Origin: Hyphomonas polymorpha PS728
Lineage (GTDB): Bacteria; Pseudomonadota; Alphaproteobacteria; Caulobacterales; Hyphomonadaceae
Length of the DNA: 64,000 bases
NCBI RefSeq assembly: GCF_000685315.1
Contig: NZ_ARYM01000003.1
Coordinates: 1-64,000, forward strand
Reading direction: 5' to 3'
Made by a program: the position numbers and the translations under genes. Shown here piece after piece: positions 1,425 to 19,891 of the stretch; position 1 is the stretch's first letter, and each line of letters begins with the position of its first letter. Under the pieces are notes generated by a model. It was not told the DNA's origin. It was given only the letters and a program-made list of their open reading frames with translations, and searched no databases.

Positions 1425-1589
1425 CGCCCTCTCCTTGTCTTCAACGTCAACCAGTAATGGCCAGTCCACTGCAGGACGGCAATCCCGTAACAATCAGTAA
1501 ATTTGGACAGAACGCGCCCAATGCGAGACCGCAAGCCGCGAAAATCAGTGGCTGACCGCATCCGATCTGTGCACAACAGGCGAGAATGC

Positions 1590-1605
1590 AATAGATATAT
1601 CAAAT
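1590..1605. promoter_or_regulatory. Degenerate GATATATC operator-like palindrome
   Basis: AATAGATATATCAAAT lies 62 bp upstream of the MmgE/PrpD start, in the 242-bp divergent region after the GntR gene. It keeps the GATATATC core of the four strong sites at 11493, 12472, 17444 and 17648 but differs from AAAAGATATATCATTT at three flanking bases. Possible fifth site of the same regulon; weak evidence. Confidence 0.35.
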
Positions 1606-4341: not shown

Positions 4342-4345
4342 TCCG

Positions 4346-5743
4346 ATGACGGATGGACACAATACTTACTTCAATGCGGTCGACTGGACGAAGATGCAGG
4401 AAGAGCATCCCACCGGCGACGCCTTCATCGCCTTTGCCAAGAAAAGCCGCGACGAAATCCGCGCGCATCAGGAAAAACTGTTCAAGCGTCTGGTGGACCG
4501 GGCCTGGAAGACGAAATTCTATCAGCATCACTGGGGCAAAGCCGGCATCCAACCGGGTGATATCAAGGGGCTGGAATCGCTTCCGTTGATTCCAAGCTTC
4601 GACAAGAGCGACATCATGGAGTCGATTGCGCGCAATCCTCCGCTGGGTGATTTTGCCGGGTTTGAAGCCTATGGGCTGGGCGAGCGCCCGCCGACCATCA
4701 TGCACACAACCTCTGGCACGACCGGCACGCCGCAGGTGCTGCTGTTCGGTGCTAAGTCGCGCGAAGTGCAGAACCTCCTGCTGGGCCGCCTCTATCGCTT
4801 TCAGGGCCTGCGTCCGGATGATGTGGTTCACTCCGTTTACGGGCATGGCATGATCAATGGCGGTCACTATGTCCGCGAGGCGGTGACGCACTGGACGAGC
4901 GCGCTGTTCATGTCTGCCGGCACGGGCGTTGAGACGCCTTCGATCAAGCAGGTGCAGCTAATGAAGGATTTCGGCGCGACCGTGATCGTGGGCTTCGCCG
5001 ACTATATCAAGAAGCTTGCGCGCGTGGCCGCAGAGCAAGGCATTGATCCGGTGAAGGATCTCAAGATTCGCATGATTTCCGGCCACCTTGGCCGCGAGGA
5101 CAAGGATACGCTGTCGCAGGCATGGGGCGGCGCGGCGTGTTTTGACTGGTATGGTGTGGGCGACACCGGCTGTATTGCCGGGGAAGGTCCGGACCGGGAC
5201 GGTCTCTATGTGATGGAGGACGCGCAGTTCCTGGAGATCGGCGATATCGATACGGGAAAACCTGTGGCCGAGGGCGCTGAAGGCGACATGATCTGCACCT
5301 GTCTGTTCAAGGATGATATCTATCCGATCATCCGCTTCAATACGCATGACGTGACGCGCCTGCGCATGGGCCAGTCGAGCCTGGGGATCAACTTCCAGCG
5401 GATTGAGGGCTTCCTCGGCCGCTCCGACAATATGGTGAAGATCCGCGGCATCAACATCTTCCCGCAGGCGATGGGGCCTATACTCGAAGAGGACAAGGCA
5501 TTTGCCGGCGAGTTCATCTGCAAGGCAAAGCGCGACGACAGCGGCCGGGACGAGTTCATCGTGGCGGCGGAAGTCAGCGGGGATGCGGGCGAAGCGGTTG
5601 CCGAGCGTTTCCGGGCACTTCTGAAACAGAAGATCGGCATTGATGTCGGCGTGGAACTCAGCGCGCCGGGAACACTGGCGTCGCTGACGCAGACGGAAGT
5701 TCGCCAGAAGCCGATCCGCCTGATCGACGAGCGTTTCAAATGA
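4346..5743 (+). CDS. Phenylacetate-CoA ligase-like adenylate-forming enzyme
   Basis: 465 residues, ANL superfamily, PaaK-like branch. The phosphate-binding loop is HTTSGTTGTPQ at ~118-128, the aromatic-acid binding region follows, and the C-terminal hinge motif GRSDNMVKIRGINIFP is at ~357-372. It should activate a carboxylic acid with ATP and CoA. It lies 4 bases after the second MmgE/PrpD gene and overlaps the amidase by ATGA. The substrate is not identifiable from sequence; PaaK-like enzymes often take aryl acids. Confidence 0.85.
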   Translation: MTDGHNTYFNAVDWTKMQEEHPTGDAFIAFAKKSRDEIRAHQEKLFKRLVDRAWKTKFYQHHWGKAGIQPGDIKGLESLPLIPSFDKSDIMESIARNPPLGDFAGFEAYGLGERPPTIMHTTSGTTGTPQVLLFGAKSREVQNLLLGRLYRFQGLRPDDVVHSVYGHGMINGGHYVREAVTHWTSALFMSAGTGVETPSIKQVQLMKDFGATVIVGFADYIKKLARVAAEQGIDPVKDLKIRMISGHLGREDKDTLSQAWGGAACFDWYGVGDTGCIAGEGPDRDGLYVMEDAQFLEIGDIDTGKPVAEGAEGDMICTCLFKDDIYPIIRFNTHDVTRLRMGQSSLGINFQRIEGFLGRSDNMVKIRGINIFPQAMGPILEEDKAFAGEFICKAKRDDSGRDEFIVAAEVSGDAGEAVAERFRALLKQKIGIDVGVELSAPGTLASLTQTEVRQKPIRLIDERFK

Positions 5744-7026
5744 CGCCGATCGAGCGGTTCGAGTATTATGCCGGGCGGATTGCCCGGCATGACGGCGCGA
5801 TCCATGCCTATCTTCACCTCCGTCTTGACGAGGCGGAGACAGAAGCGCGCGCGGCGCAGGCCCGCCATGAGGCCGGAAAGCCCCTGTCGCCGATTGATGG
5901 CTGGTGTTTCGCGGTGAAGGCAAACATCGCCGTGAAGGGCTTGCCCCATCATGCCGGCATTGGCGCTTACCGGGATGTGATCGCCCCGGAGGATGCCGAA
6001 GTCATCCGCCGCCTGCGGGCCGGCGGGGCGGTTATCCTCGGCATCGTGAACATGCATGAGGGCGCTCTTGGGGCGACCACAGACAATGAAGCCTTCGGGC
6101 GGACACAAAATCCGTGGAAGGAAGGCTACACGCCGGGTGGATCGTCTGGCGGATCAGGCGCGGCGGTATCCGCAGCGCTGTGCGATGTGGCGCTGGGCTC
6201 CGATACGATGGGGTCTGTGCGCATTCCTTCGGCTTATTGCGGGGCGCAAGGCATCAAGCCCGGCGCCGGGCTCGTCCCGAACGAAGGCGTGCTGGCGCTC
6301 TCGCACACGCTCGACACCGTTGGCCCGCATGCGCGGGAGGTGGCGAGCCTCCGGGCCGCGCTGAGCGTGATGACGGGGCAGAAATATCCCGCCGGGCGGG
6401 GCGCGCTGAATGGCCTGCGCGTCGCCATCTGGGACGGGGAGGGCCGCGACGGCATGGACCCGGTTGTAGCGGAGGCATTCGCGGCGGCGGCTGGCAGGAT
6501 CGCGGCGGCCGGCGCCGTGCTGGGCCGGATCGAGCCGCCCGGCTATGAATATGGCAAGTCCCGCCGCGCGGGGCTGCTTATCTCCGAAGTGGAAGCGAGC
6601 GAAATTCATGCAGCGAAGCTCGCGGATAATCCGGAAAGGTTTTCAAAACTTTTCCGTAAACTGATGGCATGGGGCGCAGCGCGGCCCGAGGCGGAGATTG
6701 AAGCGGCGTATGAGCATATCCGCAGCGTTGAGGCAGCCGCGGGCGCGGTGTTTGCCGCGCAGGATCTGGTAATCGCGCCGGTGGCGGCGCAGACCGCGTT
6801 TCCCTTCGGCGCGCCCGTGCCGGAGAATCAGGCGGACTTTACCGCATGGGCAAACTTTGCGGGCTTGCCCGCAGCGGCCGTGTTCACAGGGCTCAGCGCG
6901 CAGGGGCTGCCGCTGTCATTGCAGGTGATCGGGCCGAAGGGCGCCGAGGCCCGCGTGCTGGACGTGGCCGAGACGTTGGAGCGTTTGTTTGGGGCCCCGC
7001 CCGTGCCGCTGGCGCTTCAACGATAG
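5740..7026 (+). CDS. Amidase (amidase signature family)
   Basis: 428 residues with a complete Ser-cisSer-Lys triad: Lys60 in CFAVKANIAVKG, Ser135 in TPGGSSGGSGAA and nucleophile Ser159 in GSDTMGSVRIPSAYCG. No signal peptide, so cytoplasmic. The canonical GSDTGGS has Met for the first Gly. Members hydrolyse amides or carbamoyl groups (GatA and AtzF are relatives). Last gene of the operon; its final 10 bases overlap the 3' end of the opposite-strand crotonase gene. Confidence 0.88.
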   Translation: MTPIERFEYYAGRIARHDGAIHAYLHLRLDEAETEARAAQARHEAGKPLSPIDGWCFAVKANIAVKGLPHHAGIGAYRDVIAPEDAEVIRRLRAGGAVILGIVNMHEGALGATTDNEAFGRTQNPWKEGYTPGGSSGGSGAAVSAALCDVALGSDTMGSVRIPSAYCGAQGIKPGAGLVPNEGVLALSHTLDTVGPHAREVASLRAALSVMTGQKYPAGRGALNGLRVAIWDGEGRDGMDPVVAEAFAAAAGRIAAAGAVLGRIEPPGYEYGKSRRAGLLISEVEASEIHAAKLADNPERFSKLFRKLMAWGAARPEAEIEAAYEHIRSVEAAAGAVFAAQDLVIAPVAAQTAFPFGAPVPENQADFTAWANFAGLPAAAVFTGLSAQGLPLSLQVIGPKGAEARVLDVAETLERLFGAPPVPLALQR

Positions 7027-7799
7027 GTGAATTTGGCGGGACGTTTCTCGAGGAAGGCTTTGTAGCCTTCCTTGAAGTCCTCGTTCGAGAAGCCGTTCAA
7101 GAACAGGCTTTCCGCTTCCGGAGTTTCCTCCGTCCAGCCATTCTGCAGACCACGGATCATGCGCTTGGTGGCGCGGACCGACCATTGCGAGATGGCGGCG
7201 ATCTCGCCGGCCCAGGTGCGGGCGGCTTCAAGGGCAGTGCCGGTTTCCACGAGGCGATCAATCAGGCCAAGGGATTTTGCTTCCTCGGCGGCGAAGATGC
7301 GGCCGGTAAAGAGAATGTCTTTCGTGGCGCCGGGGCCAACGGCGGAGAGAAGGCGGCGCGTGTCGCCGGCGGGATAGACCAGACCGAGCTTGCCGGGTGT
7401 GACGCCGAACTTCGCGCCCGCGCCCGCCACGCGCAGGTCTGCGGCCATGGCGAGGCTGACGCCCCCGCCGACACAGGCGCCTTCAATCGCGGCGATCACC
7501 GGCTTTTCGCTGTTCTCGATGGCGTCGAGCGCATCGGCGATGCGCTGTCCGGACGCTTTGGCGGAGTCAGTGGTTGCGTAGATGGTTTCGAATTCGGAGA
7601 TGTCTGCGCCGGCGGCGAAAGCGCCGGCTGTGCCGCCGTGCAGGAGGATCAGCTTCACATCCGGGGTCGCATTCGCCTCTGCCACCAGGCTGGGGATGGC
7701 GGCCCACATATCGACCGACAGGGCATTGCGGCGCTCAGGCTTGTTGAGCACGATTTCGGCAAGCGGGGCGGCAATGTCGAGGCGGATCGGAAGGGTCAT
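7017..7799 (-). CDS. Enoyl-CoA hydratase/isomerase (crotonase) family protein
   Basis: 260 residues, crotonase fold. The oxyanion-hole segments are present (GAFAAGADISEF at ~70 and GACVGGGVSLAMAADLRVAG at ~105-124). The usual FGxPE motif reads FGVTPGKLGLVYPAG, so the first catalytic Glu of hydratases is Gly. The enzyme may therefore be an isomerase, lyase or dehalogenase-like member rather than a hydratase. Last gene of a minus-strand operon; start overlaps the aldehyde dehydrogenase stop by 4 bases. Confidence 0.85.
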   Translation of the reverse strand: MTLPIRLDIAAPLAEIVLNKPERRNALSVDMWAAIPSLVAEANATPDVKLILLHGGTAGAFAAGADISEFETIYATTDSAKASGQRIADALDAIENSEKPVIAAIEGACVGGGVSLAMAADLRVAGAGAKFGVTPGKLGLVYPAGDTRRLLSAVGPGATKDILFTGRIFAAEEAKSLGLIDRLVETGTALEAARTWAGEIAAISQWSVRATKRMIRGLQNGWTEETPEAESLFLNGFSNEDFKEGYKAFLEKRPAKFTYR

Positions 7800-9223
7800 T
7801 GGGCATCCTCAGCGAAGGCGGAAAGCGGGGCAGGCGCGCCGGTGTTAGCGATCAGCGCCTTACGCCGCAAGAAGCGCTGAAAACCGGCAGGGCCCATGCG
7901 GCTGCCGCCGAGGCCGGAGAGCTTGAAGGAATGCTTCTCCGCTTCGTGGAATAGGCCGGTCAGGGCGGCATCGTTGAGACTGATCGCGCCCGCCTCGATT
8001 TGCACGGCGATGGCTTCGGCTTCCTCCAGCGTGCCGGCAAACACGGCGGCGGAGAGGCCGTATTCGCTGTTATTGGCCGCCTCGATGGCGTCTTCTGTTG
8101 CCGCATAGGGGATGACCGGCAGGAGAGGGCCGAAGGTTTCCTCGGTCATCACCTTCATCTGCTGGCTGACATTCGTGAGGACGGTGGGGCGCAGCCACAG
8201 TCCGCCGCCATGGGTTTCGATCTCGCCGCCGGTGAGGATGCGGGCGCCTTTGGATTTTGCGTCCTCAATCTGGTCTGCGAGAATGGCGGCCTGTTTGTCG
8301 AAGATGATGGGGCCGAGGTCGCCGCTGGTGATGTCCGGCCAGTTGAGGCGGACGGCGGCGGCTTTTTCGGTGAGGCGTTTCAGGAACACGTCGTGGATCT
8401 CTGTGGCGACGTATATGCGTTCGATGGACTGGCAGGCCTGGCCAGTGGAAAGAACGGAGCCGCGCAGGGCCGCGTCTGTTGCCTTTTCAATATCCGCGCT
8501 GGCGGTGACGATGAGGGGGTCCTTGCCGCCAAGTTCCAGGAAGGCGGGGATCATCTTTGCGGCCGCCGCAGCGGCAACCTTGCGGCCAGTGGCAACCGAG
8601 CCGGTGAAGCAGATCACATCGACGGCCTCGATCAGCGCAGCGCCGGTCGCGCCATCGCCGGTGACGAAGGTGAGGACATCTTCCAGGCCTGCATCCACGA
8701 TGGCGGCCATCATCGGGGCTTCAAAGCGGGGGGTGACTTCCGAGGGCTTGATGATGACAGCCGAGCCTGCAAGCAGAGCTGGTATGGTGTCGATCATCGA
8801 GAGGGTAAGGGGGAAGTTCCAGGGCGAGATGACGCCCGTCAGCGCATACGGAACGAATTGCGGCGCGTGGCGAATGTGGGTCATGGCGCGGCCCTGCGTC
8901 CAGCCGTCTGGCAGTAGGTAGGGCGCCTGGGCAACCCAGCCGCGCAGCGCGGCGACGGCGCCGTCAAGCTCCATGCCCGCGATCCGGCGGCGGCCGGTGT
9001 CGATCTCAAGGGCGGCCGTGATGGCGGCGCGGTGCTTTACCAGCGTGTCGGCAAGACGCAGCAGCGCGGCGCCCCGATCGGCGAGCGGGAGGGCGGCCCA
9101 TGCCTTCTGCGCCGTCCGCAGGCGCGCGGCCGTGGCGGCGATTTCCGCCGTGCCGGCAGCGGAGATCTCATAATCTTGCGCGCCGGTTCTGGGGTTGCGG
9201 ACGGGGAGTGTAAGAGAGGTCAC
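7796..9223 (-). CDS. Aldehyde dehydrogenase, coniferyl-aldehyde dehydrogenase-like
   Basis: 475 residues, NAD(P)-dependent ALDH superfamily. Seen: GVISPWNFPLTL (~130-141), cofactor loop FTGSVATGRKV (~206-216), general base Glu230 in LELGGKDP and nucleophile Cys264 in GQACQSIERIYV. The PWNFP type and GQACQS motif fit the CALDH branch. Downstream of a VAO-type oxidase it probably oxidises the aldehyde that oxidase makes. It overlaps both neighbours by 4 bases. Confidence 0.88.
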   Translation of the reverse strand: MTSLTLPVRNPRTGAQDYEISAAGTAEIAATAARLRTAQKAWAALPLADRGAALLRLADTLVKHRAAITAALEIDTGRRRIAGMELDGAVAALRGWVAQAPYLLPDGWTQGRAMTHIRHAPQFVPYALTGVISPWNFPLTLSMIDTIPALLAGSAVIIKPSEVTPRFEAPMMAAIVDAGLEDVLTFVTGDGATGAALIEAVDVICFTGSVATGRKVAAAAAAKMIPAFLELGGKDPLIVTASADIEKATDAALRGSVLSTGQACQSIERIYVATEIHDVFLKRLTEKAAAVRLNWPDITSGDLGPIIFDKQAAILADQIEDAKSKGARILTGGEIETHGGGLWLRPTVLTNVSQQMKVMTEETFGPLLPVIPYAATEDAIEAANNSEYGLSAAVFAGTLEEAEAIAVQIEAGAISLNDAALTGLFHEAEKHSFKLSGLGGSRMGPAGFQRFLRRKALIANTGAPAPLSAFAEDAQ

Positions 9224-10800
9224 AGGCCAAGGGCTCCAGGGTTCACATTGCCTTTGGGATCAACAACCGCCTTAACAGCTTTGAGCAGGTTCAGTGAGGC
9301 GTCGCTGAGAACTTCCGAATACGGATAGCAGCGGCCAATCTGGAAGTGGGCGGCGCCATAGGAATCGAAAAGGTCCACCACGCCGCGGCGCGCTTTTGCG
9401 ACGGCGGCGGTTGCCGCCGGGTTTGCCGGGAAGCGTTTCAGCTTCTTGAGGTGGGCGGGGTCGACAGTGTCTTCATGAATGGCGAGCAGTTCTTCGGGCC
9501 ACATGAAAACCGGCTCGATCAGATAGGCTGTTGTGCCCAGGGAGCTGATGAGGAAGCCGGTCTGGATTTCGAATTTTTCAAACTCGGCGGAAAGCGAGGC
9601 GAAATAGTCTTCCAGAGCTTTCCAGACTTTCGGCCCGTCAGAAAGAGACACAATCCCGTGCACCGGCACCCAGCGTTCGCCTTCGGCGCCGAGGATGGTG
9701 TTTGGCGGCGTGAAGGGGTTTGCACGGACGATTTTCGGAATGGAGTTTTCAGACTCCTTTCCGCCCACAGCTGCGCAAGCCGCCTTCAGGCGTTTCATAT
9801 CTTCGGTGACGCCAGCTTTCGAGCGGCCCTCAACGACGAAATGCAGGCTCCAGCTATCGGCCTCCATGAAGTTGCGTCCGGCCATGGCAATCTTGGCGCC
9901 TTCCTGAAGGCCCTTAAGCAGATTGCCTTGCGCCTTCACCACATTGGCGAGCGTCTTCGTGTCTGCGGCGAGCGAGGCGCGTTTCAGGCGCACGCGGGTG
10001 AGGGCGGGGTCAAAGCCGAAAACTTCGCAGGCGAGGTTCTGCCGCGCGACAGCGGCCATCGCCTCAGCGCAGGCATCGCGGGTGACAAATTCGAAGGTTG
10101 CCCACTCTTCATGCTCCGGCCACGGAATGAGGCGGAAAGTGATTTCGGCCTTGAAGCCGAGCGCGCCGGAATCGCCGCAGAAAAGCCCGGTCAGGTCCGG
10201 GCCGTAATAGCGCCAGAAGGGCTTGCCGACCTTCGTGGCACCAGTGCCCGTGCGCACGGGCGTTCCATCCGCCAGAACGACCAGCAGGCCGGTTACGCTG
10301 TCAGCGGTGGTGCCATAGATGCCGGCGCCGAAGATTGCATTGCCCTGGGAAAGGCCGCCGCCAATGGTGGAATTCAGGCCCGAGAGCGGCCCCCAGAAAG
10401 GCGTGCGCAGGCCCAGTGGCTTCAGCGCGTCATAGAGCTGTTTCCAGGTAGCGCCTGCCTGCGCGGTGACATACATGTCGTCCTTGTTGATCTCCACGAT
10501 CTTGTCGAGACGGGAGAGATCCAGAATGCCGACGCCCTGACGATCCGGTGTTGTGCTGCTGGTGTAGGACATGCCGCCGCCGCGCGGGTTGAGCGCAATA
10601 TTGTGCTGGTGGCAGGCAGCAACCGTCTGCTGAAGCTGTTCAACGGTGTCCGGGGTGGCGATGAAATCGGCGGTGACGCCCGTGGCCCAGATGTCCTGGC
10701 TGAACAGTTCGCGGGCGGCGAGATCCTCGCTGTAGCCGGACGCGCCCAGGATCTGTTTCAGGACGGCGGCGATGGTCTGCGGGACGGTGGCGGTATCCAT
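9220..10800 (-). CDS. FAD-linked oxidase, vanillyl-alcohol oxidase/4-cresol dehydrogenase type
   Basis: 526 residues. The N-terminal PP-type FAD domain is clear (NPRGGGMSYTSS, VTAQAGATWKQLYDAL, GPLSGLNSTIGGGLSQGNAIFGAGIYGTTADSV at ~85-195), followed by a cap domain. The C-terminus HFQIGRCYPYSEVL...DPKGNVNPGALGL is typical of VAO-family oxidases for para-substituted phenols and alcohols. The product would be an aldehyde or ketone fed to the following ALDH. It follows the membrane-protein gene by 18 bp. The exact phenolic substrate is inference. Confidence 0.82.
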   Translation of the reverse strand: MDTATVPQTIAAVLKQILGASGYSEDLAARELFSQDIWATGVTADFIATPDTVEQLQQTVAACHQHNIALNPRGGGMSYTSSTTPDRQGVGILDLSRLDKIVEINKDDMYVTAQAGATWKQLYDALKPLGLRTPFWGPLSGLNSTIGGGLSQGNAIFGAGIYGTTADSVTGLLVVLADGTPVRTGTGATKVGKPFWRYYGPDLTGLFCGDSGALGFKAEITFRLIPWPEHEEWATFEFVTRDACAEAMAAVARQNLACEVFGFDPALTRVRLKRASLAADTKTLANVVKAQGNLLKGLQEGAKIAMAGRNFMEADSWSLHFVVEGRSKAGVTEDMKRLKAACAAVGGKESENSIPKIVRANPFTPPNTILGAEGERWVPVHGIVSLSDGPKVWKALEDYFASLSAEFEKFEIQTGFLISSLGTTAYLIEPVFMWPEELLAIHEDTVDPAHLKKLKRFPANPAATAAVAKARRGVVDLFDSYGAAHFQIGRCYPYSEVLSDASLNLLKAVKAVVDPKGNVNPGALGL

Positions 10801-10818: not shown

Positions 10819-11475
10819 TCAGACGGGTTTGAAGAGGGCGAGCAGGGCAGCGATGACAAGCAGCGCCCAGATGCCGGTGACGAGTGGGCGGGCGCGGTTC
10901 AGGGTTGCGGCGAGGCTGGCTTCGGCAGCTGGCGCGTCCGGGCCGGAAAGCCCCATCAGGGCCGGACCGAGCGGCTTCAGCACCGAGCGGATGAAGAGGC
11001 CGAAGCCAGTGCAACCCGCCAGCGCCAGCAGCTTCAGCGACAGGAAGAGGGGCAGGCTGCCCTCGCCGGCCATGTTCCACAGCGCGGCGGCGACAAGACC
11101 GGTGATCAGTGCCCAGCGGATGGCAAGGTCTGTCTTGCGCCAGAGCGCCGGGGCGGCGCCATGTTTCATATGGATGGTCCAGGCAAGGGCCAGCCAGCCG
11201 AGCGCGGCGAGCCAGACAATGACCAGCACTGGCAGGGGCAGGCTGATCCAGCCTTTGACATGGGCAAGCGTCAGACCTGTGGGGAAAGCGAGAATGAGCG
11301 CCGTGCGCGGCGCCATATCGACATCATTGACCACTTTGGCGGCAAGCATGCGCCGGTCGGTGCTGATGCCCGGCTTGATGAGGAAGCGGCTGGTGTAAAA
11401 GGCGCCGAGATCGCCGCCCAGCCAGTAAACGAACACCAGAAGGTGCAGCAGCGTGAAGATCGCTATTTCGGTCAT
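10819..11475 (-). CDS. Six-helix integral membrane protein
   Basis: 218 residues with about six hydrophobic helices (for example FTLLHLLVFVYWLGGDLGAF, VLVIVWLAALGWLALAW, LVTGIWALLVIAALLAL). No recognised catalytic motif. The layout resembles small CopD/DUF2269-like membrane proteins but I cannot assign it. First gene of the oxidase operon, with a perfect operator palindrome 17 bp before its start. It may pass electrons from, or transport substrate for, the flavoprotein; that is inference. Confidence 0.7.
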   Translation of the reverse strand: MTEIAIFTLLHLLVFVYWLGGDLGAFYTSRFLIKPGISTDRRMLAAKVVNDVDMAPRTALILAFPTGLTLAHVKGWISLPLPVLVIVWLAALGWLALAWTIHMKHGAAPALWRKTDLAIRWALITGLVAAALWNMAGEGSLPLFLSLKLLALAGCTGFGLFIRSVLKPLGPALMGLSGPDAPAAEASLAATLNRARPLVTGIWALLVIAALLALFKPV

Positions 11476-11492: not shown

Positions 11493-11508
11493 AAAAGATA
11501 TATCTTTT
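11493..11508. promoter_or_regulatory. GntR-type operator, perfect palindrome
   Basis: AAAAGATATATCTTTT is a perfect 16-bp palindrome between the stop of the GntR gene and the start of the oxidase operon. It is so close to the start (17 bp) that bound protein should block transcription or initiation. The best of four matching sites in 6 kb. Confidence 0.75.
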
Positions 11509-11537
11509 AATCGCGCGAAGTTTCGCCGGACGCAAGC

Positions 11538-12374
11538 TCAGCTGTCTGTTTTCCAGTCTTTCTGGCGTGCGGTGTTACGTGTGAGGCGCATATGATACTG
11601 AAAACGGTCAGCGCGGTAGTGGGCCGTGATGTCCTGAACCGGGCGGCCGCTCTTGTCGCGCATGACGCGGTGGATGCGCAGCAGCGGCGAGCCGGGCGCA
11701 ACGCCCAGATTTGCCGCAACTGCCGCTTCGGCAGCCTCGGCCATGATTGTCTGCTCCGCCTCGACCGGGGCATGGCCGGCCTTTTCCAGCAGCTTGATCA
11801 GGGATTCGGTGGCCAGCTCGTCCTCAGAATAACCCTCGGCCACATCTTCGGGAATGTAGGTGATGAGGTACGAGAAGGGCTCTCCGCCCAGGCGGCGCAG
11901 GCGCACGATGCGCTGCACGGATGAGCCGTGAGGTAATTCCAGCGCGTCACAGATAGCAGGGCTGGCCGAGGCCATGGTGCAGTCCAGCAGCTGGACCTGC
12001 GTTTCAACGCCCATGCGCGTCAGGCCGTCGATGAGGTTTTCGAAGCTGCCCTTCACGGTGGGGGCGGCGGCGTCGAAGGTGATGACTGTGCCGATGCCGC
12101 GCTGGCGGCGGACAAAACCAGCGACCGCCAGTTCGTTGAGCGCGCGCTTCACCGTGATGCGGGAGACGCCGAGCATCTCGGTAAGCTCCTGCTCGGCGGG
12201 CAGGCGGGTGTTGAGGCCCAACTCGCCGCTGACGATCTTGGCGCGCAGAAGGTCATAAATCTGTTGGTAGAGCGGGGGGCCGGCCGTCTCGTCGATGAGA
12301 TCGGCAGTCAGGCTGAGGGTCGAGTCGGCCGCCATGGAGCGAGTATCCGTTACAAGTTGAATGATTTGCTCCAC
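11538..12374 (-). CDS. GntR family (HutC/UTRA) regulator, probable master of the AAAAGATATATCTTTT regulon
   Basis: 278 residues from GTG 12374; ATG 12335 is an alternative and neither has a clear Shine-Dalgarno. Winged helix at ~33-100 (PLYQQIYDLLRAKIV, LPAEQELTEMLGVSRITVKRALNELAVAGFVRRQRGIGT) then a UTRA domain (SSVQRIVRLRRLGGEPFSYLITYIPED). It sits in the middle of four identical-type palindromes, one downstream of its gene and one in its own upstream region, so it is the best candidate binder and probably represses itself. Ligand unknown. Confidence 0.85.
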   Translation of the reverse strand: MEQIIQLVTDTRSMAADSTLSLTADLIDETAGPPLYQQIYDLLRAKIVSGELGLNTRLPAEQELTEMLGVSRITVKRALNELAVAGFVRRQRGIGTVITFDAAAPTVKGSFENLIDGLTRMGVETQVQLLDCTMASASPAICDALELPHGSSVQRIVRLRRLGGEPFSYLITYIPEDVAEGYSEDELATESLIKLLEKAGHAPVEAEQTIMAEAAEAAVAANLGVAPGSPLLRIHRVMRDKSGRPVQDITAHYRADRFQYHMRLTRNTARQKDWKTDS

Positions 12375-12471
12375 TTATCGGCTGAGCGTTCCGTGTTTGC
12401 AATGCACCATAGGGTTTTCGGGGGAATCAAAAGGTTTGAGTTGCATGGCGGTACATTTCCGCTAGCCTCAC

Positions 12472-12487
12472 AAAAGATATATCATTT
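12472..12487. promoter_or_regulatory. GntR-type operator
   Basis: AAAAGATATATCATTT, one mismatch from the perfect palindrome at 11493 and identical to 17648-17663. It lies between the divergent GntR gene and the DUF1838 gene, 9 bp before the latter's ATG, so it could control both. Confidence 0.7.
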
Positions 12488-12496
12488 GGGGTGCTC

Positions 12497-13330
12497 ATGC
12501 TTCGATATCTGGTTTCCGGCGCCATGCTTTTCCTGGTGGCTTGTGCTTCGGCGGGTGAACCGCCGGAAGTGGTGAGCGTAGCCGAGGCCTCGGCAGAGGA
12601 CGACATCTTCCGCCTCTGGATCGCGGCGCGGGCAGGCAATGGCACGCCGGTCCACTGGGTGTCACAGGGAGCGGTCTATGCCTATCCCTCGGGCGAGAAG
12701 ATCCTCGGCATGACGGGCTTTGACAGCTCGCGCGTGATCTGGCCGGAGGGAGGCGAGGGCGAGGTGATCCACCTGACGCGCAAGACCTTCACCTATACAG
12801 ACCCGGTGACTGGAGAGTTCCTGACAGAGTTCAACGGGCAGAAGGTGGTGCCGATTGCCTATCCCTATCAGGTGATCCGTTACCGGATGAAAGACGGGCT
12901 GATCTTTGCCGATGTGGAGCAGGGCGTGGAGCCGCGCGTGCAGAAGATCGAATCGAAAGACGGGATCATCGCGCGCAAGGTCGGCGACAGCTGGGCGTTC
13001 ACCGCGCCGCTTTTCCTGAATTTCCCGCTGCCCAGCGGCGGCCAGTATGAAGCCTGGGAGAACTACGACTTCTTCATCCATCCCGAAGGCAGCGTCAGCG
13101 AGCCCCATCAGATGAGCTGGCAGCGCCTGGGTGATCTGCCGCCCTGGGCCGGGGGCGGCAAAGGCATCTATCATCTGCTGAGCTGGCGCGTGGATTCGGC
13201 GGAGGAGTTTCCGCCGGAACTTCTGGAATGGGCGAAGGCAGAGAAGCCCCTGTGGCTGGCGCCGCCGGAAAGCCTTGAGGAAGTCCGCAGGCTGCAGAAG
13301 GGCGAAGGCGGGCCGGGCTGGGGCCAGTAG
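12497..13330 (+). CDS. DUF1838 family lipoprotein
   Basis: 278 residues. N-terminal lipoprotein signal peptide with lipobox LVAC (Cys about residue 16), then a DUF1838-type body (TPVHWVSQGAVYAYPSGEK, ILGMTGFDSSRVI, GQYEAWENYDFFIHPEG, HLLSWRVDSAEEFPPEL). ATG 12497 follows a GGGG run; GTG 12491 in frame is possible. No enzyme activity is established for this family to my knowledge. Its operator puts it in the GntR regulon, so it probably acts on the outer membrane or periplasmic side of this pathway. Confidence 0.8.
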   Translation: MLRYLVSGAMLFLVACASAGEPPEVVSVAEASAEDDIFRLWIAARAGNGTPVHWVSQGAVYAYPSGEKILGMTGFDSSRVIWPEGGEGEVIHLTRKTFTYTDPVTGEFLTEFNGQKVVPIAYPYQVIRYRMKDGLIFADVEQGVEPRVQKIESKDGIIARKVGDSWAFTAPLFLNFPLPSGGQYEAWENYDFFIHPEGSVSEPHQMSWQRLGDLPPWAGGGKGIYHLLSWRVDSAEEFPPELLEWAKAEKPLWLAPPESLEEVRRLQKGEGGPGWGQ

Positions 13331-13332
13331 CG

Positions 13333-13746
13333 TCAGCTGAGGCCCTTCGAGACATCATCCGGAGGGCCGCCGGCGGCGCGGTGGCGGATGGCTTCGCGGC
13401 TTTCCCATATCTTGCCGCCGATGAACTGGCCGATGGAGTTGGTGAACTCCTTGTACTCGACTGAGGCATACATGCCGCAGGTGATGTAGGGATCAGCCTG
13501 CATCAGCGATTTCACTTCCTCCAGCGCGGTGCCCATCACGAGGAAGAGGGAGCCGATAAGGGCGTCGCCGCCCGGTTCACGGAACGGGCCTGCGGTGATG
13601 TAGCGGGTCCAGTGGCGCTCTACATGTTCGAGGTGACCGTCGAGATGCCGCGCGCGCAACGTGGCAGCGCCGGGGCCGTCGCGGCAGATGACGAGATAAC
13701 AGGTGCCATCGGGTTTCTTGACGAAGGGGGGTGCTGTGCCGGTCAT
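13333..13746 (-). CDS. YciI-like protein
   Basis: 137 residues resembling the YciI/YCII dimeric ferredoxin-like fold: HLDGHLEHVERHWTRYITAGPFREPGGDALIGSLFLVMGTALEEVKSLMQADPY is the characteristic run (conserved His, GP, and ADPY end). Some family members are hydrolytic dehalogenases or lactonase-like; the function here is unknown. Last gene of the minus-strand hydrolase operon, overlapping the nitrilase-like gene by 4 bases. It ends 2 bases past the DUF1838 stop. Confidence 0.75.
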   Translation of the reverse strand: MTGTAPPFVKKPDGTCYLVICRDGPGAATLRARHLDGHLEHVERHWTRYITAGPFREPGGDALIGSLFLVMGTALEEVKSLMQADPYITCGMYASVEYKEFTNSIGQFIGGKIWESREAIRHRAAGGPPDDVSKGLS

Positions 13747-14873
13747 TTCAGGACACCGGCGGACACGAGACGGTCAATCACGGCCTGCTGCTGGGCAAGC
13801 GCGTCGGCGCGCTGGACCATCTTGCCATCCGGCGTGCGATTGGCCGGGGCCATCTCGTTTCCGGCATAGGCCGGAGCGAAGGCGGCCAGCGGCAGGCGAG
13901 AGAGTGTGTTGGTCATGCCGGTCTTGCGGCGCGTTTCGCGCAGGGCGGTGAGATCAAGCACGGCGTTGGCGTTCATCGTCTCGCCCGTGCCGGCTTCGGC
14001 CAGGGTGCGGCCATACCAGTCGAGCACGATGGACATGCCATCGGTGGAGGCGGCGGGGACAGGCGTGCCCGTGATGCCGGCAGAGTTAGCCGAGACGACA
14101 TAGGCAATGTTCTCGATGGCGCGCGCCTTTTTGGCGATATGCTTGGGCGTGAGGCCGGGGCTGCCGACTTCCGAGGTCGGGTGCAACAGGATTTCGGCGC
14201 CCTTGAACGCGCTCATGCGGGCGATCTCGGGGTAGAGGATTTCCTCGCTGGCAATGGTGGCCAGCGCGCCGATCTCGGTTTCGACCACAGGGAACACGGC
14301 GTCGGCGCCGTAGATATCCAGATACTTCTCCCAGACATCATAGGGAGAAGGCGAGTAAAGCGAGATCATGCGGCGATAGCGCAGGAGCGTTTCGCCGGTT
14401 GGTCCATAGATGACGTTGGACTGGAAATAGAGCTCAGGAAAGTTCGGATCGGTCTCGTAATGGTTCGAGCACAGATAGACGCCTGCCGTCTGCGCCATTT
14501 TTGCCAGCGCTTCGGGAAAGGCGCCGTCCATGGGGATGGCCGCCTTCGCTTGCCAGCTTTCGCGCGTTTCGCCCATCGGGAAACCGGTCATCCAGTATTC
14601 CGGCAGCACGACGAGTTTCAGATCATAGCCATTGAAGCCCTTGAGGAAGTTTTTCGAGGCCATGATCTGGCCGGTGACGCGGGCAATGGCGCCCTTCATC
14701 CGGGCGTGAGAGGCTTCGGGCGTCTTGTCCTGATTGACGGCCTCGCAGACGGTTTGCAGCGCGAGCGCGGTATAGCGCATGGATTTAGCCTCCCCGGCAT
14801 TGGCATTTGATCCGCCGGCGAACGGCAGGAGCGACGTGGCAGCAGCGCCCATCAGCAGGCCGCGGCGCGTCAT
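13743..14873 (-). CDS. Nitrilase-fold protein with replaced catalytic residues, Tat signal
   Basis: 376 residues. Starts with a twin-arginine signal (MTRRGLLMGAAATSLLPFAG), so it is probably periplasmic. Carbon-nitrogen hydrolase fold: Glu92 in VVLPEYWMTGFP matches the catalytic Glu. The usual Lys of YRK is Arg168 (YRRM) and the usual Cys six residues before PE is Ser209 (ASEEILYPE). It may be an inactive or Ser-based branch, or a family with a known Ser variant. It overlaps both neighbours by ATGA-type junctions, so it is stably kept in the operon. Confidence 0.8.
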   Translation of the reverse strand: MTRRGLLMGAAATSLLPFAGGSNANAGEAKSMRYTALALQTVCEAVNQDKTPEASHARMKGAIARVTGQIMASKNFLKGFNGYDLKLVVLPEYWMTGFPMGETRESWQAKAAIPMDGAFPEALAKMAQTAGVYLCSNHYETDPNFPELYFQSNVIYGPTGETLLRYRRMISLYSPSPYDVWEKYLDIYGADAVFPVVETEIGALATIASEEILYPEIARMSAFKGAEILLHPTSEVGSPGLTPKHIAKKARAIENIAYVVSANSAGITGTPVPAASTDGMSIVLDWYGRTLAEAGTGETMNANAVLDLTALRETRRKTGMTNTLSRLPLAAFAPAYAGNEMAPANRTPDGKMVQRADALAQQQAVIDRLVSAGVLK

Positions 14874-15781
14874 GAGCTGGTCTCGGCAAATGCGGCAGAA
14901 ACCTCGGAAGCCGTTGCGACCTCCAGCCCTTCCATAGCCGCCAGTCCCGTCAGTGCACGGGCAACCGCTTCAATCCGGAAGGGCAGGCCGGTGATATAGG
15001 GCGTCAGCGTGAAGCCGAAACATTGCGCCCCGCGCGCGCCATGCTCTGCCACGGTTTGGGCGGCCGCTTCGAGGATCTGATCGGCCCATTCTTCCTCGCT
15101 CTGGGAGCGGGTGGACAGCATCAGGAAATCCGACAGCTCATAATGGTTGGGCAGGCAGGTCAGCGGGCCGTGAGCAGTGCGCATGTCGAGCGGGCGCTGG
15201 TCGCTTTCCCAGTCAAGGCAAATGGTGAAGCCGGCTTCGCGAACAAGGTCCGGCGTGCGGAAGGACTGATTGCGCGCGGGGCTCAACCAGGTGATGGCTT
15301 CGGGCAGGACGGCGCGTGTCTGCGTCACCAGCGCACGCTCTTCATCTTCGCTGAGGCCCGCATGATGGATGTGCGCGGTTGATATGCCGTGTGCGGCAAT
15401 CTCGTGGCCCGCAGTGCGGATGGTCTCGATCAGCGGTGCATAGCGCTCCGCCACGGAGGCGTTGACCGCGAAGGTGGCCTTCACACCGGCTGCGCCGAGT
15501 TCTCTCAGCAGACGGTAGACGCCGACACGGTTGCCATAGTCGCGCGTCGTATAATGGCGCAGGTCCGGGTAGGGCGTAACCATGGCGCCTGGATGCTTGA
15601 AGGGCTTGGCCGGCGGGTCCAGCGGAAAGAATTCCAGCGGAATGGTGATGAAAGCCATCGCCTTTGCGCCGGACTTGAGATGCAGCGGCGCGCGCCGGTC
15701 GGCGGGCTGCCAGTCATACCGGTCCTGATCCATGCCATAGGCACGGTGGGGATATTCAAGAAATTCAGCGGGCAGGGGCAA
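14870..15781 (-). CDS. Polysaccharide deacetylase-fold (PuuE/cyclic-imidase-like) hydrolase
   Basis: 303 residues from TTG 15781, chosen because ACAGGAGGAA lies just upstream; the open frame runs to 15895 but that would overlap the previous gene by 131 bp. NodB-like fold: YGNRVGVYRLLRELGAAGVKATFAVNASV, HEIAAHGISTAHIHHAG and WLSPARNQSFRTPDLVREAGFTICLDW. The DYGNRVG signature is shared with PuuE allantoinases and cyclic imide hydrolases rather than chitin deacetylases. More divergent than its neighbour at 15765. The substrate is inference. Confidence 0.8.
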   Translation of the reverse strand: MPLPAEFLEYPHRAYGMDQDRYDWQPADRRAPLHLKSGAKAMAFITIPLEFFPLDPPAKPFKHPGAMVTPYPDLRHYTTRDYGNRVGVYRLLRELGAAGVKATFAVNASVAERYAPLIETIRTAGHEIAAHGISTAHIHHAGLSEDEERALVTQTRAVLPEAITWLSPARNQSFRTPDLVREAGFTICLDWESDQRPLDMRTAHGPLTCLPNHYELSDFLMLSTRSQSEEEWADQILEAAAQTVAEHGARGAQCFGFTLTPYITGLPFRIEAVARALTGLAAMEGLEVATASEVSAAFAETSS

Positions 15782-16712
15782 AGCCGGTTCCTCCTGTAGC
15801 GGCGCCGCGGGCGGCGATGTCGGCAATACTCTGGTCCCAGTAATGTGTGCGGAAATGGTCGGCGATTTCGGCGCCGGTGGTGATCCACACATCATCGGAG
15901 TGGGCGGCGATGTGTTTCAGGGCTTCTTCGAAGATGCGGATGCGGTGGGGCTGGCCGACCAGATAGGCATGCAGCGGAATGCACATCACCGTGCCGGATT
16001 GTTCCCCCTCTTTCAGCAATTGATCAAAATGCCGTTTCAGCAGGTCAGTGTAACGTTGCGGGCTCCATCCCTGTACGGAATAGGTGATTACGTCATTCAC
16101 TTCCAGAGAATAGGGCATCGAGACGAGCTTGCCGGTTTTCGTCTTCAGCGGCTGGGGCTGGTCATCCTGGAAGAGATCACAGGAATACCAGAAATCATGC
16201 TCGGCGATCAGGTCCAGCGTGCGTTCGGTATGGGTGAGGGCCGGGGCGAGATAGCCGCGGATGCGCTGGCCGGTGGCCTTCTCCACAGAGCGGATTGAAT
16301 CTTCCAGCACCGCGCGCTCCTGGGCTTCGTCCATGCCGTAGGAATAGCGGGTATTATAGATGCCGTGGCTGAAGAACTCCCAGTTCCGCGCAACACAGGC
16401 TTCAATGATTTCCGGGTGATGGTCGATGAGCCCGATCGACAGCGAGATCGAGCCGCGCATGCCATATTTGTCCAACAGGTCCATCAGGCGCCAATGGCCG
16501 ATCCGGTTTCCCCAATCGCGTTGAGAGTACCCGATAATGTCCGGGTTCGGACGTGGCCAGGGTGCCCGTGAAGGATTCGCGGGTGGATCGAACTCGTAAT
16601 ACTCTATGTTCGGCGCAATCCAGAAGGCGAGTTTCTTTCCGCCCGGCCACCGGATCTGCGGCCTGCCCTCATAGGGCCAGAAATCATAGAGATTGGGATC
16701 GGAATGCGTCAT
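15765..16712 (-). CDS. Polysaccharide deacetylase-fold (PuuE/cyclic-imidase-like) hydrolase
   Basis: 315 residues, metal-dependent NodB-like fold. Seen: SQRDWGNRIGHWRLMDLLDKYGMRGSISLSIG (split core strand and helix), WEFFSHGIYNTRYSYGMDEAQER (His ligand region), RGYLAPALTHTERTLDL and a late CIPLHAYLVGQPHRI His motif. These fit PuuE-type amidohydrolases opening cyclic amides or imides. Paralogue of the next gene; two together may form a heteromer or act on related rings. Starts 3 bases inside the isochorismatase-like gene's end. Confidence 0.83.
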   Translation of the reverse strand: MTHSDPNLYDFWPYEGRPQIRWPGGKKLAFWIAPNIEYYEFDPPANPSRAPWPRPNPDIIGYSQRDWGNRIGHWRLMDLLDKYGMRGSISLSIGLIDHHPEIIEACVARNWEFFSHGIYNTRYSYGMDEAQERAVLEDSIRSVEKATGQRIRGYLAPALTHTERTLDLIAEHDFWYSCDLFQDDQPQPLKTKTGKLVSMPYSLEVNDVITYSVQGWSPQRYTDLLKRHFDQLLKEGEQSGTVMCIPLHAYLVGQPHRIRIFEEALKHIAAHSDDVWITTGAEIADHFRTHYWDQSIADIAARGAATGGTGFAPAR

Positions 16713-17407
16713 CCCTTGTATCCTTCAATCCAGGCTTTCACTTCGGCGACGGGAACCACATCGGCATATTTGATGAGCAGGTCGGTGAGGTTTGCGAAGT
16801 GGTAGCTTTCATGCTTGTCGGCCACGCATTCGATGGGAACAATGGCGCGGTAGCCCCGGCTGAGCGCGTCTACGGCTGTGGCGCGGATGCAGCCGGATGT
16901 GGAGCCGCCCGTCACGATGACCGTATCCACCTTGTGCCAGGTAAGGAAGCTCTGAAGCGGCGTTTCGAAGAAGGCGCTCGGCATGCGCTTGGTGTAAACG
17001 GCATCGACCTTCTCATCGATGGTCAGCCGGTCGTCAAACGCATGGCGGTCGGATCCATATTTAATGTTCTGCAGCGAATCGGGCGTGTTCGTCCGTGTGC
17101 CCCAGACGCCGGCATCGGCGGCATTTTCCATATAGGCAACATGTGTCCACACGACCGGCAGACCCTTGGCCCGCGCGGCGCTGGAGATGTCATTTATATA
17201 AGTCACCTGGTTGGGATCGGTGATGTAGGCCGTTTTCGGGAAAAGGTCCGGTCGCGTATAGGCCTTCTGCGGATCAACGTTCACGATGGCGATCTTTTCG
17301 CCGAAGCCGAATTTTGCGCGCGCCGGATTTGCCAGCGTTTCCTCGAAGATCTCTCGGGCGGTCTTGTCCGACCGGATCATGGTGGGTTCGGTGGGATAGC
17401 CGCTCAT
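16709..17407 (-). CDS. Isochorismatase-like cysteine hydrolase (N-carbamoylsarcosine amidase-like)
   Basis: 232 residues from ATG 17407, preceded by GAGGA; the longer frame to 17506 would run through the operator. Complete triad: Asp45 (IVNVDPQKAY), Lys140 (YTKRMPSAF) and Cys173 (GGSTSGCIRATAVDALSRGY). The STSGCIRATAVDA motif is that of N-carbamoylsarcosine and ureidoacrylate-type amidohydrolases that cleave linear carbamoyl or half-amide products. First gene of a five-gene minus-strand operon, 36 bp after an operator. It probably acts after ring opening by the deacetylase-fold enzymes. Confidence 0.87.
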   Translation of the reverse strand: MSGYPTEPTMIRSDKTAREIFEETLANPARAKFGFGEKIAIVNVDPQKAYTRPDLFPKTAYITDPNQVTYINDISSAARAKGLPVVWTHVAYMENAADAGVWGTRTNTPDSLQNIKYGSDRHAFDDRLTIDEKVDAVYTKRMPSAFFETPLQSFLTWHKVDTVIVTGGSTSGCIRATAVDALSRGYRAIVPIECVADKHESYHFANLTDLLIKYADVVPVAEVKAWIEGYKG

Positions 17408-17443
17408 GGACAAGGATCCTCGCTGGGAAAATGGGTGATCTTC

Positions 17444-17459
17444 AAATGATATATCCTTT
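17444..17459. promoter_or_regulatory. GntR-type operator
   Basis: AAATGATATATCCTTT, sharing the GATATATC core and A/T-rich flanks of the perfect site. It precedes the five-gene hydrolase operon by 36 bp. With the site at 17648 it brackets the 300-bp divergent region between that operon and the TonB receptor. I see nothing else recognisable between them. Confidence 0.68.
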
Positions 17460-17647
17460 TCTTTGCGTCGAGCGCCAGACCGGATTTTCCTGTGGGAGGC
17501 TGGCATGCGCGCGGAGATTTTTAAACCTGCCCTGACAACTGCCAGACCTAAAGCGCTTCAGGAATGGGCACACGCGCCTCAAGACCGTGCAATTTCTGTC
17601 ATGAAGGAAATTGACTTTGACCGGACATATTGTAATCAGAGTGCCGC

Positions 17648-17663
17648 AAAAGATATATCATTT
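17648..17663. promoter_or_regulatory. GntR-type operator
   Basis: AAAAGATATATCATTT, identical to the site at 12472, and 44 bp before the TonB receptor start. Places the outer-membrane receptor under the same regulator as the oxidase and hydrolase operons. Confidence 0.7.
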
Positions 17664-17707: not shown

Positions 17708-19891
17708 ATGCGTTTCAGATCTTCACTTTCGGTGAGCGCGAGCCTTGCGGTTCTGCTCTCGGGGGCCAGCCTGCTGCCGGCAGTGGCACAGGAAGCAGAC
17801 TCGGCTGATGCCGACACGCGCCGTCTCGGCGCTATCACCGTCACCGCGCAGCGGGTCGAGGAAAACCTGCAGGATGTGCCTGTCGCCGTCACGGCGCTCG
17901 ATTCGGCAATGCTTGAGGACAAGCAGATCGGCGATCTCCTCGACCTGCAATCCGTTGTGCCCAACATCAACATGGCCACAAACACCGGCACCGCCAATGC
18001 CGCGCGCATCTTCCTGCGCGGCGTGGGCGAAGACGAGAGCCGCGGCGCGGTTGACCAGGCAGTCGGTGTGTATGTCGACGGCGTATATGTCGGCCGCTCG
18101 GTTGGCTCGCTGTTCGACGTGGTTGATCTTTCCAGCATTGAGGTGCTGCGCGGTCCCCAGGGCACGCTCTATGGCCGCAACACCATTGGCGGCGCTGTCA
18201 AACTGACTTCGGTAAAACCGCAGTTCAACAATTCCGGCGATGTCCGCACGACCGTTGGCAACAATGGCCGCTTTGATGTGCGCGGCACCGCGAACCTTCA
18301 GGTGGGTGAAAATTCCGCTTTCCGCCTGACGGGTCTTCTGCGGGAGCGTGACGGTTTCCATGACGTGATTCCGAACGGCCCGCTCGCCGATCAGCGCCGC
18401 GACGGCGTCGGCCGCACGCATATCATGGCGATGCGCGGCAGCTTCTACACGGAGTTTTCGCCCGAATGGTCGCTGCTCGTGGCGGCTGACCAGACGCTTG
18501 ACCGTTCGGACCCGATCCCGGATTCTGCTGCGCCTGGCTTTGACGCTGATGGCGACCTGTTCACCATCGAGCCGCTGCCAGGTGTCACCTGTACGCCGAC
18601 CTCAACGGCCATCGGCTGTTTCGTCGGCTACGATCAGCGCTCCAAATCGTCAGGCATTTCGGCAACGGTGAAGGGCGATCTCGCCGGTCTCGATTTCACC
18701 TCGATCTCCGCCTATCGCGAGCTGGATGATAATCTCGTCACCCGCATCGGCTCTCCCTACAGCCAGCAGACGAGCCAGTCTCAGACCAGCCAGGAATTCA
18801 CCCTGGGCAAGTCTGGCGATACGCTCGATTGGTTGCTCGGCGCCTTCTACTTCAATGAAGATCTGAACCTTGAATCGATCTTCGTGTTCCCGCACTCGGT
18901 CACTGCGGAAACCACCTCCTACGCCGTGTTCGGCCAGGGCACTTACGCGCTTACCGACGCGCTCAGCCTGACGGGCGGCGTGCGTGTAACGTCGGAATCG
19001 AAAGACTTCTACGGCATCAACCGGACGCTGGGCTTCAACCGGACTGACAGCGCGGACTTCGACAATGTCAGCTACACCATCGGCGCTGACTATCGCTTCA
19101 ATGACTCGGTGCTCGGCTACGCCAAATACTCCACCGGCTTCAAATCCGGCGGCTGGTCTCCGGATGCGTTCAGTGCAACGGCGATCTTCCTGCGCGTTGA
19201 CGAAGAAACCCTCGACTCCTTCGAGGCAGGTCTGAAGACCGACCTCTTCGACAATAAGGTTCGCCTCAACACGGCTGCCTTCTTCAACAAGTATGAAGGC
19301 CTCCAGATCGGCGCGACCGTTCCGGGCCTTGGCTTCACCCGCTTCAATGTCGACGAAACCGAGATCATGGGTCTTGAGGTTGAAGGCGTGTGGCAGGTTA
19401 CCGACAGCTTCCAGCTGAACGGCAACCTCGGCCTGCTCAGCGCGGAATACACCGACATGACCGGTGATCAGGCACGCGGCCTCACAAACAACGGGGCAGG
19501 TTGCCCGGCTGGCACGGTGGCATCCGACAACGCCCAGATCATTGCCTGCGCTCTCGGCCTCCAGCTGAAGAACGCGCCGGAATACAAGGCAACGATTGGC
19601 GCGCTCTACACGATGCCGTTCTACAACGGCGAACTCATCTTCTCGGGCGATGTCGCCTTCGAGGATGATTCCTGGAGCCTCGTGGCGAACCATCCGGCGC
19701 ATGCCCTGAGTGAAATCCCGACCCTGATGAACGCCCGCGTGAAGTATGAGTCGGCTCAAGGTTGGTCTGTTGCGCTCTGGGGCAAGAACCTGGGCGACGA
19801 GAAATACTACCGTGCCACCACCGCAGGTTCTTTCTCGGCCTATGCGTCCGAGCCGCTTACCTATGGCATCGATCTCGGCTGGAAATTCTAA
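17708..19891 (+). CDS. TonB-dependent outer membrane receptor
   Basis: 727 residues. Signal peptide with an AVA-type cleavage site near residue 27, a TonB-box-like LGAITVTAQR (~38-47), a plug domain with RIFLRGVGEDESRGAVDQAVGVYVDGVYVGR, VLRGPQGTLYGRNTIGGAV, then a 22-strand barrel ending in aromatic Phe (GIDLGWKF). Its plug type is that of many substrate-specific alphaproteobacterial receptors. A GntR operator and a GGGAGGA ribosome site precede the ATG. It is likely to import the compound degraded by the flanking operons; the ligand itself cannot be read. Confidence 0.92.
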   Translation: MRFRSSLSVSASLAVLLSGASLLPAVAQEADSADADTRRLGAITVTAQRVEENLQDVPVAVTALDSAMLEDKQIGDLLDLQSVVPNINMATNTGTANAARIFLRGVGEDESRGAVDQAVGVYVDGVYVGRSVGSLFDVVDLSSIEVLRGPQGTLYGRNTIGGAVKLTSVKPQFNNSGDVRTTVGNNGRFDVRGTANLQVGENSAFRLTGLLRERDGFHDVIPNGPLADQRRDGVGRTHIMAMRGSFYTEFSPEWSLLVAADQTLDRSDPIPDSAAPGFDADGDLFTIEPLPGVTCTPTSTAIGCFVGYDQRSKSSGISATVKGDLAGLDFTSISAYRELDDNLVTRIGSPYSQQTSQSQTSQEFTLGKSGDTLDWLLGAFYFNEDLNLESIFVFPHSVTAETTSYAVFGQGTYALTDALSLTGGVRVTSESKDFYGINRTLGFNRTDSADFDNVSYTIGADYRFNDSVLGYAKYSTGFKSGGWSPDAFSATAIFLRVDEETLDSFEAGLKTDLFDNKVRLNTAAFFNKYEGLQIGATVPGLGFTRFNVDETEIMGLEVEGVWQVTDSFQLNGNLGLLSAEYTDMTGDQARGLTNNGAGCPAGTVASDNAQIIACALGLQLKNAPEYKATIGALYTMPFYNGELIFSGDVAFEDDSWSLVANHPAHALSEIPTLMNARVKYESAQGWSVALWGKNLGDEKYYRATTAGSFSAYASEPLTYGIDLGWKF

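Follow-up and report, generated by a model that had tools for sequence, protein, structure and literature searches.

The window analysed here is a stretch of 64,000 nucleotides from Hyphomonas polymorpha PS728 (family Hyphomonadaceae; GCF_000685315.1, contig NZ_ARYM01000003.1, positions 1 to 64,000). It holds two regulators with GntR and UTRA domains, GntR-A and GntR-B, set among enzyme operons, a DUF1838 protein and a TonB-dependent receptor, and a palindrome with the core GATATATC recurs in front of these units (Table 1). An earlier note on this DNA had described four such palindromes (at 11493, 12472, 17444 and 17648), a GntR/UTRA gene amid them, and behind them a VAO-type oxidase/aldehyde dehydrogenase (ALDH)/crotonase operon, a DUF1838 protein, a five-gene hydrolase operon and a TonB receptor. 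All four 16-mers are present at these positions, and Pfam confirms both the contents of the units and the GntR and UTRA domains of the gene at 11538-12335. The count of four was correct as far as it went but overlooked a fifth site (1590-1605), and the extent of the system was underestimated, since a second GntR/UTRA gene (711-1493) and the larger part of the system, on other contigs, had escaped notice. The window contains five copies of the core where 0.21 would be expected, and five or more copies appeared in 0 of 100 shuffles; the four sites are genuine and no product of chance. Judged from sequence, GntR-B, a HutC-subfamily protein, probably runs a regulon of about 14 promoters as a repressor through a non-consensus operator. 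The regulon is new, and of a known kind.

Across the 4.05 Mb genome, the bare 8-mer occurs at 28 places (reversed control, 12). The A/T flanks are absent at 16 of these, none of which lies within two mismatches of the 16-mer, so that specificity is carried by the flanks. The 16-mer AAWWGATATATCWTTT, with up to two mismatches, occurs at 15 places (reversed control, 0) in three clusters: five in the window, nine at C12:6640-26327 and one at C36:9282 (C numbers are contigs, and G numbers below are genomes). Neither of the two refuting outcomes named in the earlier note was observed: the extended motif is confined to these clusters, not scattered at random, and it is retained before most of the orthologous units in close relatives. 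The distance from operator to nearest start codon is 9-62 bp at 14 of 14 sites; for this count we chose the starts from open frames, corrected those of the 238-residue membrane protein and the HMG-CoA-lyase-like (HMGL) gene by eye from the sequence, and left out the site at 20544, a neighbour of 20529.

Island genes in relatives were located by tblastn. The C12 and window parts are joined in G042 (a one-contig genome) and in G045 into a single island that extends from LeuC as far as TonB1 and measures about 43 kb in G042; hence the window shows only part of the system. Following the order of G042, C12 joins the window start in reverse orientation. An assembly break lies where the window begins (1-707), and the start of C12 (C12:1-1200) adjoins it in that order. 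Gene order is the same as in H. polymorpha save for genes without a tblastn match in the island, which are the amine oxidase, the 238-residue membrane protein and the YCII-related protein in G042, and SSF in G045. In G042, about 110 kb separate the island from the abhydrolase site of C36. In G012 the units are spread over four places, one of them 1.7 Mb from GntR-B, and retain sites (for example, the 238-residue membrane protein at 2.4975 Mb). Outside the island, G045 has an extra one-mismatch site (C1:1753933) immediately ahead of an MFS-like gene.

Table 1. Regulators, operators and associated genes of the window, with counterparts of the sites in related genomes
Feature	Position	Strand	Context or support	Counterparts
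Proposed GntR-B operator AAAAGATATATCTTTT	11493..11508		17 bp before membrane protein/VAO/ALDH/crotonase operon	Exact, same position: G042, G045, G012, G034, G078, G087
Proposed GntR-B operator AAAAGATATATCATTT	12472..12487		Between gntR-B (136 bp) and DUF1838 (9 bp)	G042 1119627; G045 1702987; G012 793108 only with 2 mismatches
Proposed GntR-B operator AAATGATATATCCTTT	17444..17459		36 bp before isochorismatase operon	G042 1124195; G045 1707954; G012 799386
Proposed GntR-B operator AAAAGATATATCATTT	17648..17663		44 bp before TonB receptor	G042 1124400; G045 1708159
Weaker fifth site AATAGATATATCAAAT	1590..1605		Between GntR-A and MmgE/PrpD operon	G042 1108748; G045 1692101; exact form G034 331266; none within 2 mismatches at matching position of G012
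Probable GntR-A operator TATGTCCGGACAAA	1666..1679		Over MmgE1 start codon	
GntR-B, GntR + UTRA, proposed owner of GATATATC operators	11538..12335	-	PF00392 2.3e-20, PF07702 2.4e-36, both over cut-off	
GntR-A, second GntR + UTRA regulator	711..1493	-	Pfam GntR 2.5e-20, UTRA 1.3e-17	
MmgE/PrpD, MmgE/PrpD, PaaK-like CoA ligase, amidase operon	1667..7026	+		
Crotonase (enoyl-CoA hydratase family)	7017..7799	-	PF00378 6.3e-46	
Aldehyde dehydrogenase	7796..9223	-	PF00171 3.9e-109	
VAO-type FAD-dependent oxidase/dehydrogenase	9220..10800	-	PF01565 6.4e-33	
Membrane protein, 218 residues, first gene of VAO operon	10819..11475	-	Membrane nature read from sequence; no Pfam family at 0.1	Gene position conserved in relatives
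DUF1838 protein, lipoprotein-like N-terminus	12497..13330	+	PF08894 7.2e-10	
YCII-related protein	13333..13746	-	PF03795 1.4e-8	
Carbon-nitrogen hydrolase	13743..14873	-	PF00795 4.1e-25	
PDA2, second PuuE-like protein	14870..15895	-	PF01522 3.8e-9; true start probably near 15799	
PDA1, polysaccharide-deacetylase family, PuuE-like	15765..16712	-	PF01522 1.6e-9; PuuE allantoinase 3cl6 7.2e-31	
Isochorismatase-family hydrolase (amidase-like)	16709..17407	-	PF00857 1e-25	
TonB-dependent receptor (TonB1)	17708..19891	+	PF00593, PF07715	

The assignment of the sites to GntR-B draws on 105 genomes of the family, in which a protein of at least 60% identity was taken as a GntR-B ortholog. GntR-B has a match at 1e-30 in 25 genomes and reaches that identity in 18, while the exact 16-mer AAWWGATATATCWWTT occurs in 19 and its reversed control in none of the 105. 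The motif is present in 17 of the 18 genomes with a GntR-B ortholog and in two of the other 87 (G002 and G033), giving a Fisher p of 1.8e-16 with genomes treated as independent. Among the predictors compared, the motif follows GntR-B most closely, which supports the earlier reading of the central GntR protein as the regulator. The recognition helix reads SRIT[VI]KR in the 18 orthologs (about 60% identity or more). Homologs of 43-53% identity have inexact sites nearby, upstream of the gene in G016 and within about 230 bp past its 3' end in G080, G081 and G085.

GntR-B shares the GntR-UTRA domain order of the HutC subfamily (HutC, PhnF, YvoA/NagR, DasR) and likewise has a site in its own divergent promoter and catabolic targets; its solved relatives in the PDB include YvoA and DasR. 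It scores below the cut-offs of the NCBIfam models for both HutC (TIGR02018, 114 bits; cut-off 220) and PhnF (TIGR02325, 130.6 bits; cut-off 156.8). The available part of one report gives the HutC consensus operator as NyGTMTAKACNy, lists FarR, NagQ and SdhR as exceptions, and pairs an Arg at helix-turn-helix position 28 with the G/C at operator positions 8/17 (PMC4494728). By our comparison, the G and C of the palindrome stand equally far from the centre in the GntR-B sites and in the consensus. The bases beside the GntR-B core are A/T, not G/C. At what we take to be position 28 (mapped by eye from FadR numbering), GntR-B carries Gln, as do the 18 orthologs, in place of the Arg usual in the subfamily; if the mapping is right, this and the A/T bases would agree with the pairing. 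The genome encodes a third UTRA regulator (C28:18619-19023); the frame beside it resembles what we take to be a histidine-pathway deiminase, and that regulator is perhaps the true HutC.

Several observations weigh against GntR-B as the owner of the sites or against the regulon as drawn. Fisher's test ignores shared ancestry, and GntR-A also tracks the motif, which is present in 14 of the 15 genomes with GntR-A (matches at 1e-30) and in 5 of the 90 without it, an association that is strong because both regulators lie in the same island. G002, whose assembly is 88% complete, has five exact sites but lacks any UTRA protein; G033 has one site with only a 38% GntR-B homolog; and the ortholog of G047 (about 60%) is accompanied by no exact site, only by two copies of GTTATATC with one mismatch. 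At one mismatch, the control matches once each in G087 and G003 (2 of 12 genomes). The GntR-B core, GRTATAYC, differs from the HutC consensus core GTMTAKAC. Before isochorismatase, LeuC, HMGL and CaiB2 in the compact modules of G080, G081 and G085, no match to the relaxed pattern was seen at up to two mismatches. Further, no sigma-70-type promoter was detected at the sites by a promoter and terminator scan, whose results fell below the shuffle means.

A second palindrome, found post hoc, bears on the division of labour between the two regulators. TGTCCGGACA has GT and AC 4 nt apart, which fits the HutC-subfamily rule. It occurs at the MmgE1 start position also in G042, G045, G012, G034, G030, G062 and G078. 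In the own genome, G042, G045, G012, G034 and G030, a further copy lies on the HpcH start or ahead of it. The exact longer form WWTGTCCGGACAWW has two places in the own genome, at MmgE1 and HpcH (control, 0), and both carry TGTCCGGACA in G030. From its position and its survival in G030, TGTCCGGACA is probably the operator of GntR-A. Specificity is confined to the strict form: the loose pattern TTTGTCCGGACAAA (up to three mismatches) is not enriched in the own genome (141 against 143 for the control), and it is at or below control in six of seven other genomes. Exact copies of TGTCCGGACA were also seen in G012 (289527), within LeuC of G045 (1665097) and in G002 (10215), a genome that lacks UTRA proteins. 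TGACCGGACA (17618-17627), ahead of the TonB receptor and retained in G042, G045 and G012, differs by one mismatch from the probable GntR-A operator; it may represent another site of GntR-A, the third, or belong to the promoter. The first start in frame of GntR-A is TTG, and the true start may lie downstream. The island would combine two regulators with separable operators.

That GntR-A rather than GntR-B binds the GATATATC sites is decidedly unlikely. The two share an island, the site at 1590 lies in the divergent promoter of GntR-A and is exact there in G034, and the motif accompanies GntR-A in nearly every genome that has it. However, G003, G037 and G087 carry the motif and GntR-B without a GntR-A ortholog, their other UTRA proteins showing at most 28% identity to GntR-A over a long stretch (best 41% over 71 residues) or no match. 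The reverse holds in G030, which has GntR-A (56%), only a 39% GntR-B homolog and no exact 16-mer site; its ACAD, MaoC, PuuE-like, SDR and PaaK genes are at 78-89% identity. Moreover, the GntR-A promoter of G012 lacks a GATATATC site within two mismatches, and the units linked to GntR-A share the other palindrome, TGTCCGGACA, with its GT-N4-AC spacing. Binding of the same sites by both proteins, with overlapping regulons, is unlikely. The weaker site at 1590 adjoins a TGTCCGGACA element in one promoter, as such sharing would have it, but the recognition helices are unlike (SRITVKRAL in GntR-B, SRHTAREAL in GntR-A), and it is the second palindrome that persists alongside GntR-A in G030, from which the first is absent.

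The palindrome might instead serve an activator, or an unlinked regulator of another family. The variable spacing to the start codon (9-62 bp) and the sites of G002, which has no UTRA gene, would fit, whereas the tracking of GntR-B by the motif over 105 genomes and the sites near GntR-B homologs make this highly improbable. Chance, or low-complexity A/T-rich promoter sequence, has a probability close to nil: the bare core is just about twofold over its reversed control genome-wide, but the 16-mer control gives 0 in the own genome and, at zero mismatches, 0 in all 105 genomes.

Under the preferred assignment to GntR-B, a GntR-B dimer would bind AAAWGATATATCWTTT-type palindromes near the start codons of about 14 promoter regions; a single catabolic island holds 13 of these, and the remaining one is that of the C36 abhydrolase. 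GntR-B would act as an autoregulated repressor, to judge from the spacing of 9-62 bp to the starts and from the site in its own divergent promoter. On binding to the UTRA domain, a substrate or an intermediate of the pathway would release GntR-B from DNA and turn on uptake (two TonB receptors, MFS and an SSF symporter) and breakdown together. GntR-A would control a subset, namely the MmgE/PrpD operon and the HpcH part of a long unit, through TGTCCGGACA. One repressor for both substrate uptake and catabolism is also described, in the available part of the report, for PheR of Sphingobium, an IclR-family protein (PMC13273656); PheR differs from GntR-B in regulator family and operator. A literature search, which did not include RegPrecise, returned no Hyphomonas GntR regulon and no Hyphomonadaceae GntR operator, and a search for GATATATC with GntR gave only matches unrelated by title.

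Within the window, the sites precede GntR-A and the divergent MmgE/PrpD-PaaK-amidase operon, the VAO operon, GntR-B and DUF1838, the isochorismatase operon, and TonB1. Those in the rest of the island precede LeuCD; CaiB2 and the divergent HMG-CoA-lyase-like/SSF unit; a second DUF1838 protein; TonB2 with a 168-residue protein that has a sub-threshold DUF3598 match only; MFS and amine oxidase; VOC/ADH/abhydrolase; the 238-residue membrane protein; and a methyltransferase with the long unit HapK-like/SDR/PuuE-like/VOC/HpcH/MaoC/ACAD/CaiB. Roughly 44 genes by our count, with operon extents inferred and many without an assigned function, would be tied to one switch and form a ready list for joint testing on one substrate. 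The two DUF1838 proteins behind operators lie in the window (12497-13330) and at C12:19614-20516; relatives of the second in G045 and G012 match DUF1838 at about 1e-67 and share 21-25% identity with the first. The SDR/PuuE-like unit opens with a 104-residue REDY-like HapK protein (C12:6292-6606; PF11639, 1.4e-10). VOC294 has no PDB relative at 0.01.

The PDB matches of the VAO-type enzyme are led by D-lactate dehydrogenase, with p-cresol methylhydroxylase next. Those of the isochorismatase-family hydrolase include N-carbamoylsarcosine amidohydrolases and 3ot4/3uao, and the Asp, Lys and Cys that we take to be catalytic align with these relatives. PDA2 scores 2.4e-13 against the PuuE model, far under the model's cut-off, and the PDB relatives of CaiB2 include succinate-hydroxymethylglutarate CoA-transferase. 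The isochorismatase family, PuuE-like deacetylases, LeuCD, CaiB2 and an HMG-CoA-lyase-like enzyme, which recur in small modules, hint at opening of a small cyclic amide or imide, ammonia release, hydration, activation and C-C cleavage. A more specific proposal, which we regard as doubtful and offer tentatively, is that the island encodes an undescribed alkyl-maleimide/cyclic-imide pathway (for instance, for tetrapyrrole or pyrrole breakdown products), controlled by a single HutC-type repressor whose operator has been re-tuned. In such a pathway, deacetylase-family imidases would open the ring, the isochorismatase-family amidase would free ammonia, a LeuCD-type hydratase would act on the alkyl-maleate, and a CaiB-type transferase would form a CoA ester for cleavage by the HMG-CoA-lyase-like enzyme.

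PuuE-related cyclic imidases are known and, in the available parts of two reports, cyclic-imide catabolism in Aspergillus (HxnM imidase/HxnN amide hydrolase) and Pseudomonas putida YZ-26 (imidase) pairs a PuuE/deacetylase-related ring opener with a subsequent amidase, as would be the case here (PMC9304392; PMC3084791). Unlike those systems, the island has three deacetylase-family paralogs, an isochorismatase-family hydrolase, LeuCD, a CoA-transferase and HMG-CoA-lyase-like enzymes. The literature on methylvinylmaleimide and hematinic acid that was retrieved concerns only chemical breakdown and plant/herbivore products, and the search gave nothing on maleimide with LeuCD or on the enzyme set of the island.

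The small modules (G041, G047, G080, G081 and G085) retain isochorismatase, PDA1, PDA2, a GntR-B homolog, SSF, HMGL, LeuCD and CaiB2. Because they hold only a few sites, all of them inexact, the full regulon is a feature of the larger islands: G047 has its two GTTATATC copies between isochorismatase and LeuC, and G041 has one inexact site between SSF and LeuC. Another match in G085, at 556245, has two mismatches. In G030, two stretches scanned for the GGTATACC operator contained none, and the form GTTATACC stands at one orthologous promoter, which is only a hint. GntR/UTRA proteins with related operators (GATATATC, GGTATACC and perhaps GTTATATC) may form a natural series showing how the family shifts its DNA target. 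A Marinicaulis record (L080) has a compact island with a regulator of 60% identity and six sites (up to one mismatch to the relaxed pattern) in 20.8 kb, while 43 remote loci from the same search (745,760 bases) have no site at zero mismatches. The helix of its GntR-B reads VRR instead of VKR, and GG replaces GA in 6 of 12 half-sites, compared with 2 of 28 in the own genome. That the change from K to R in the helix goes with that from GA to GG in the half-sites is a lead only, from one lineage.

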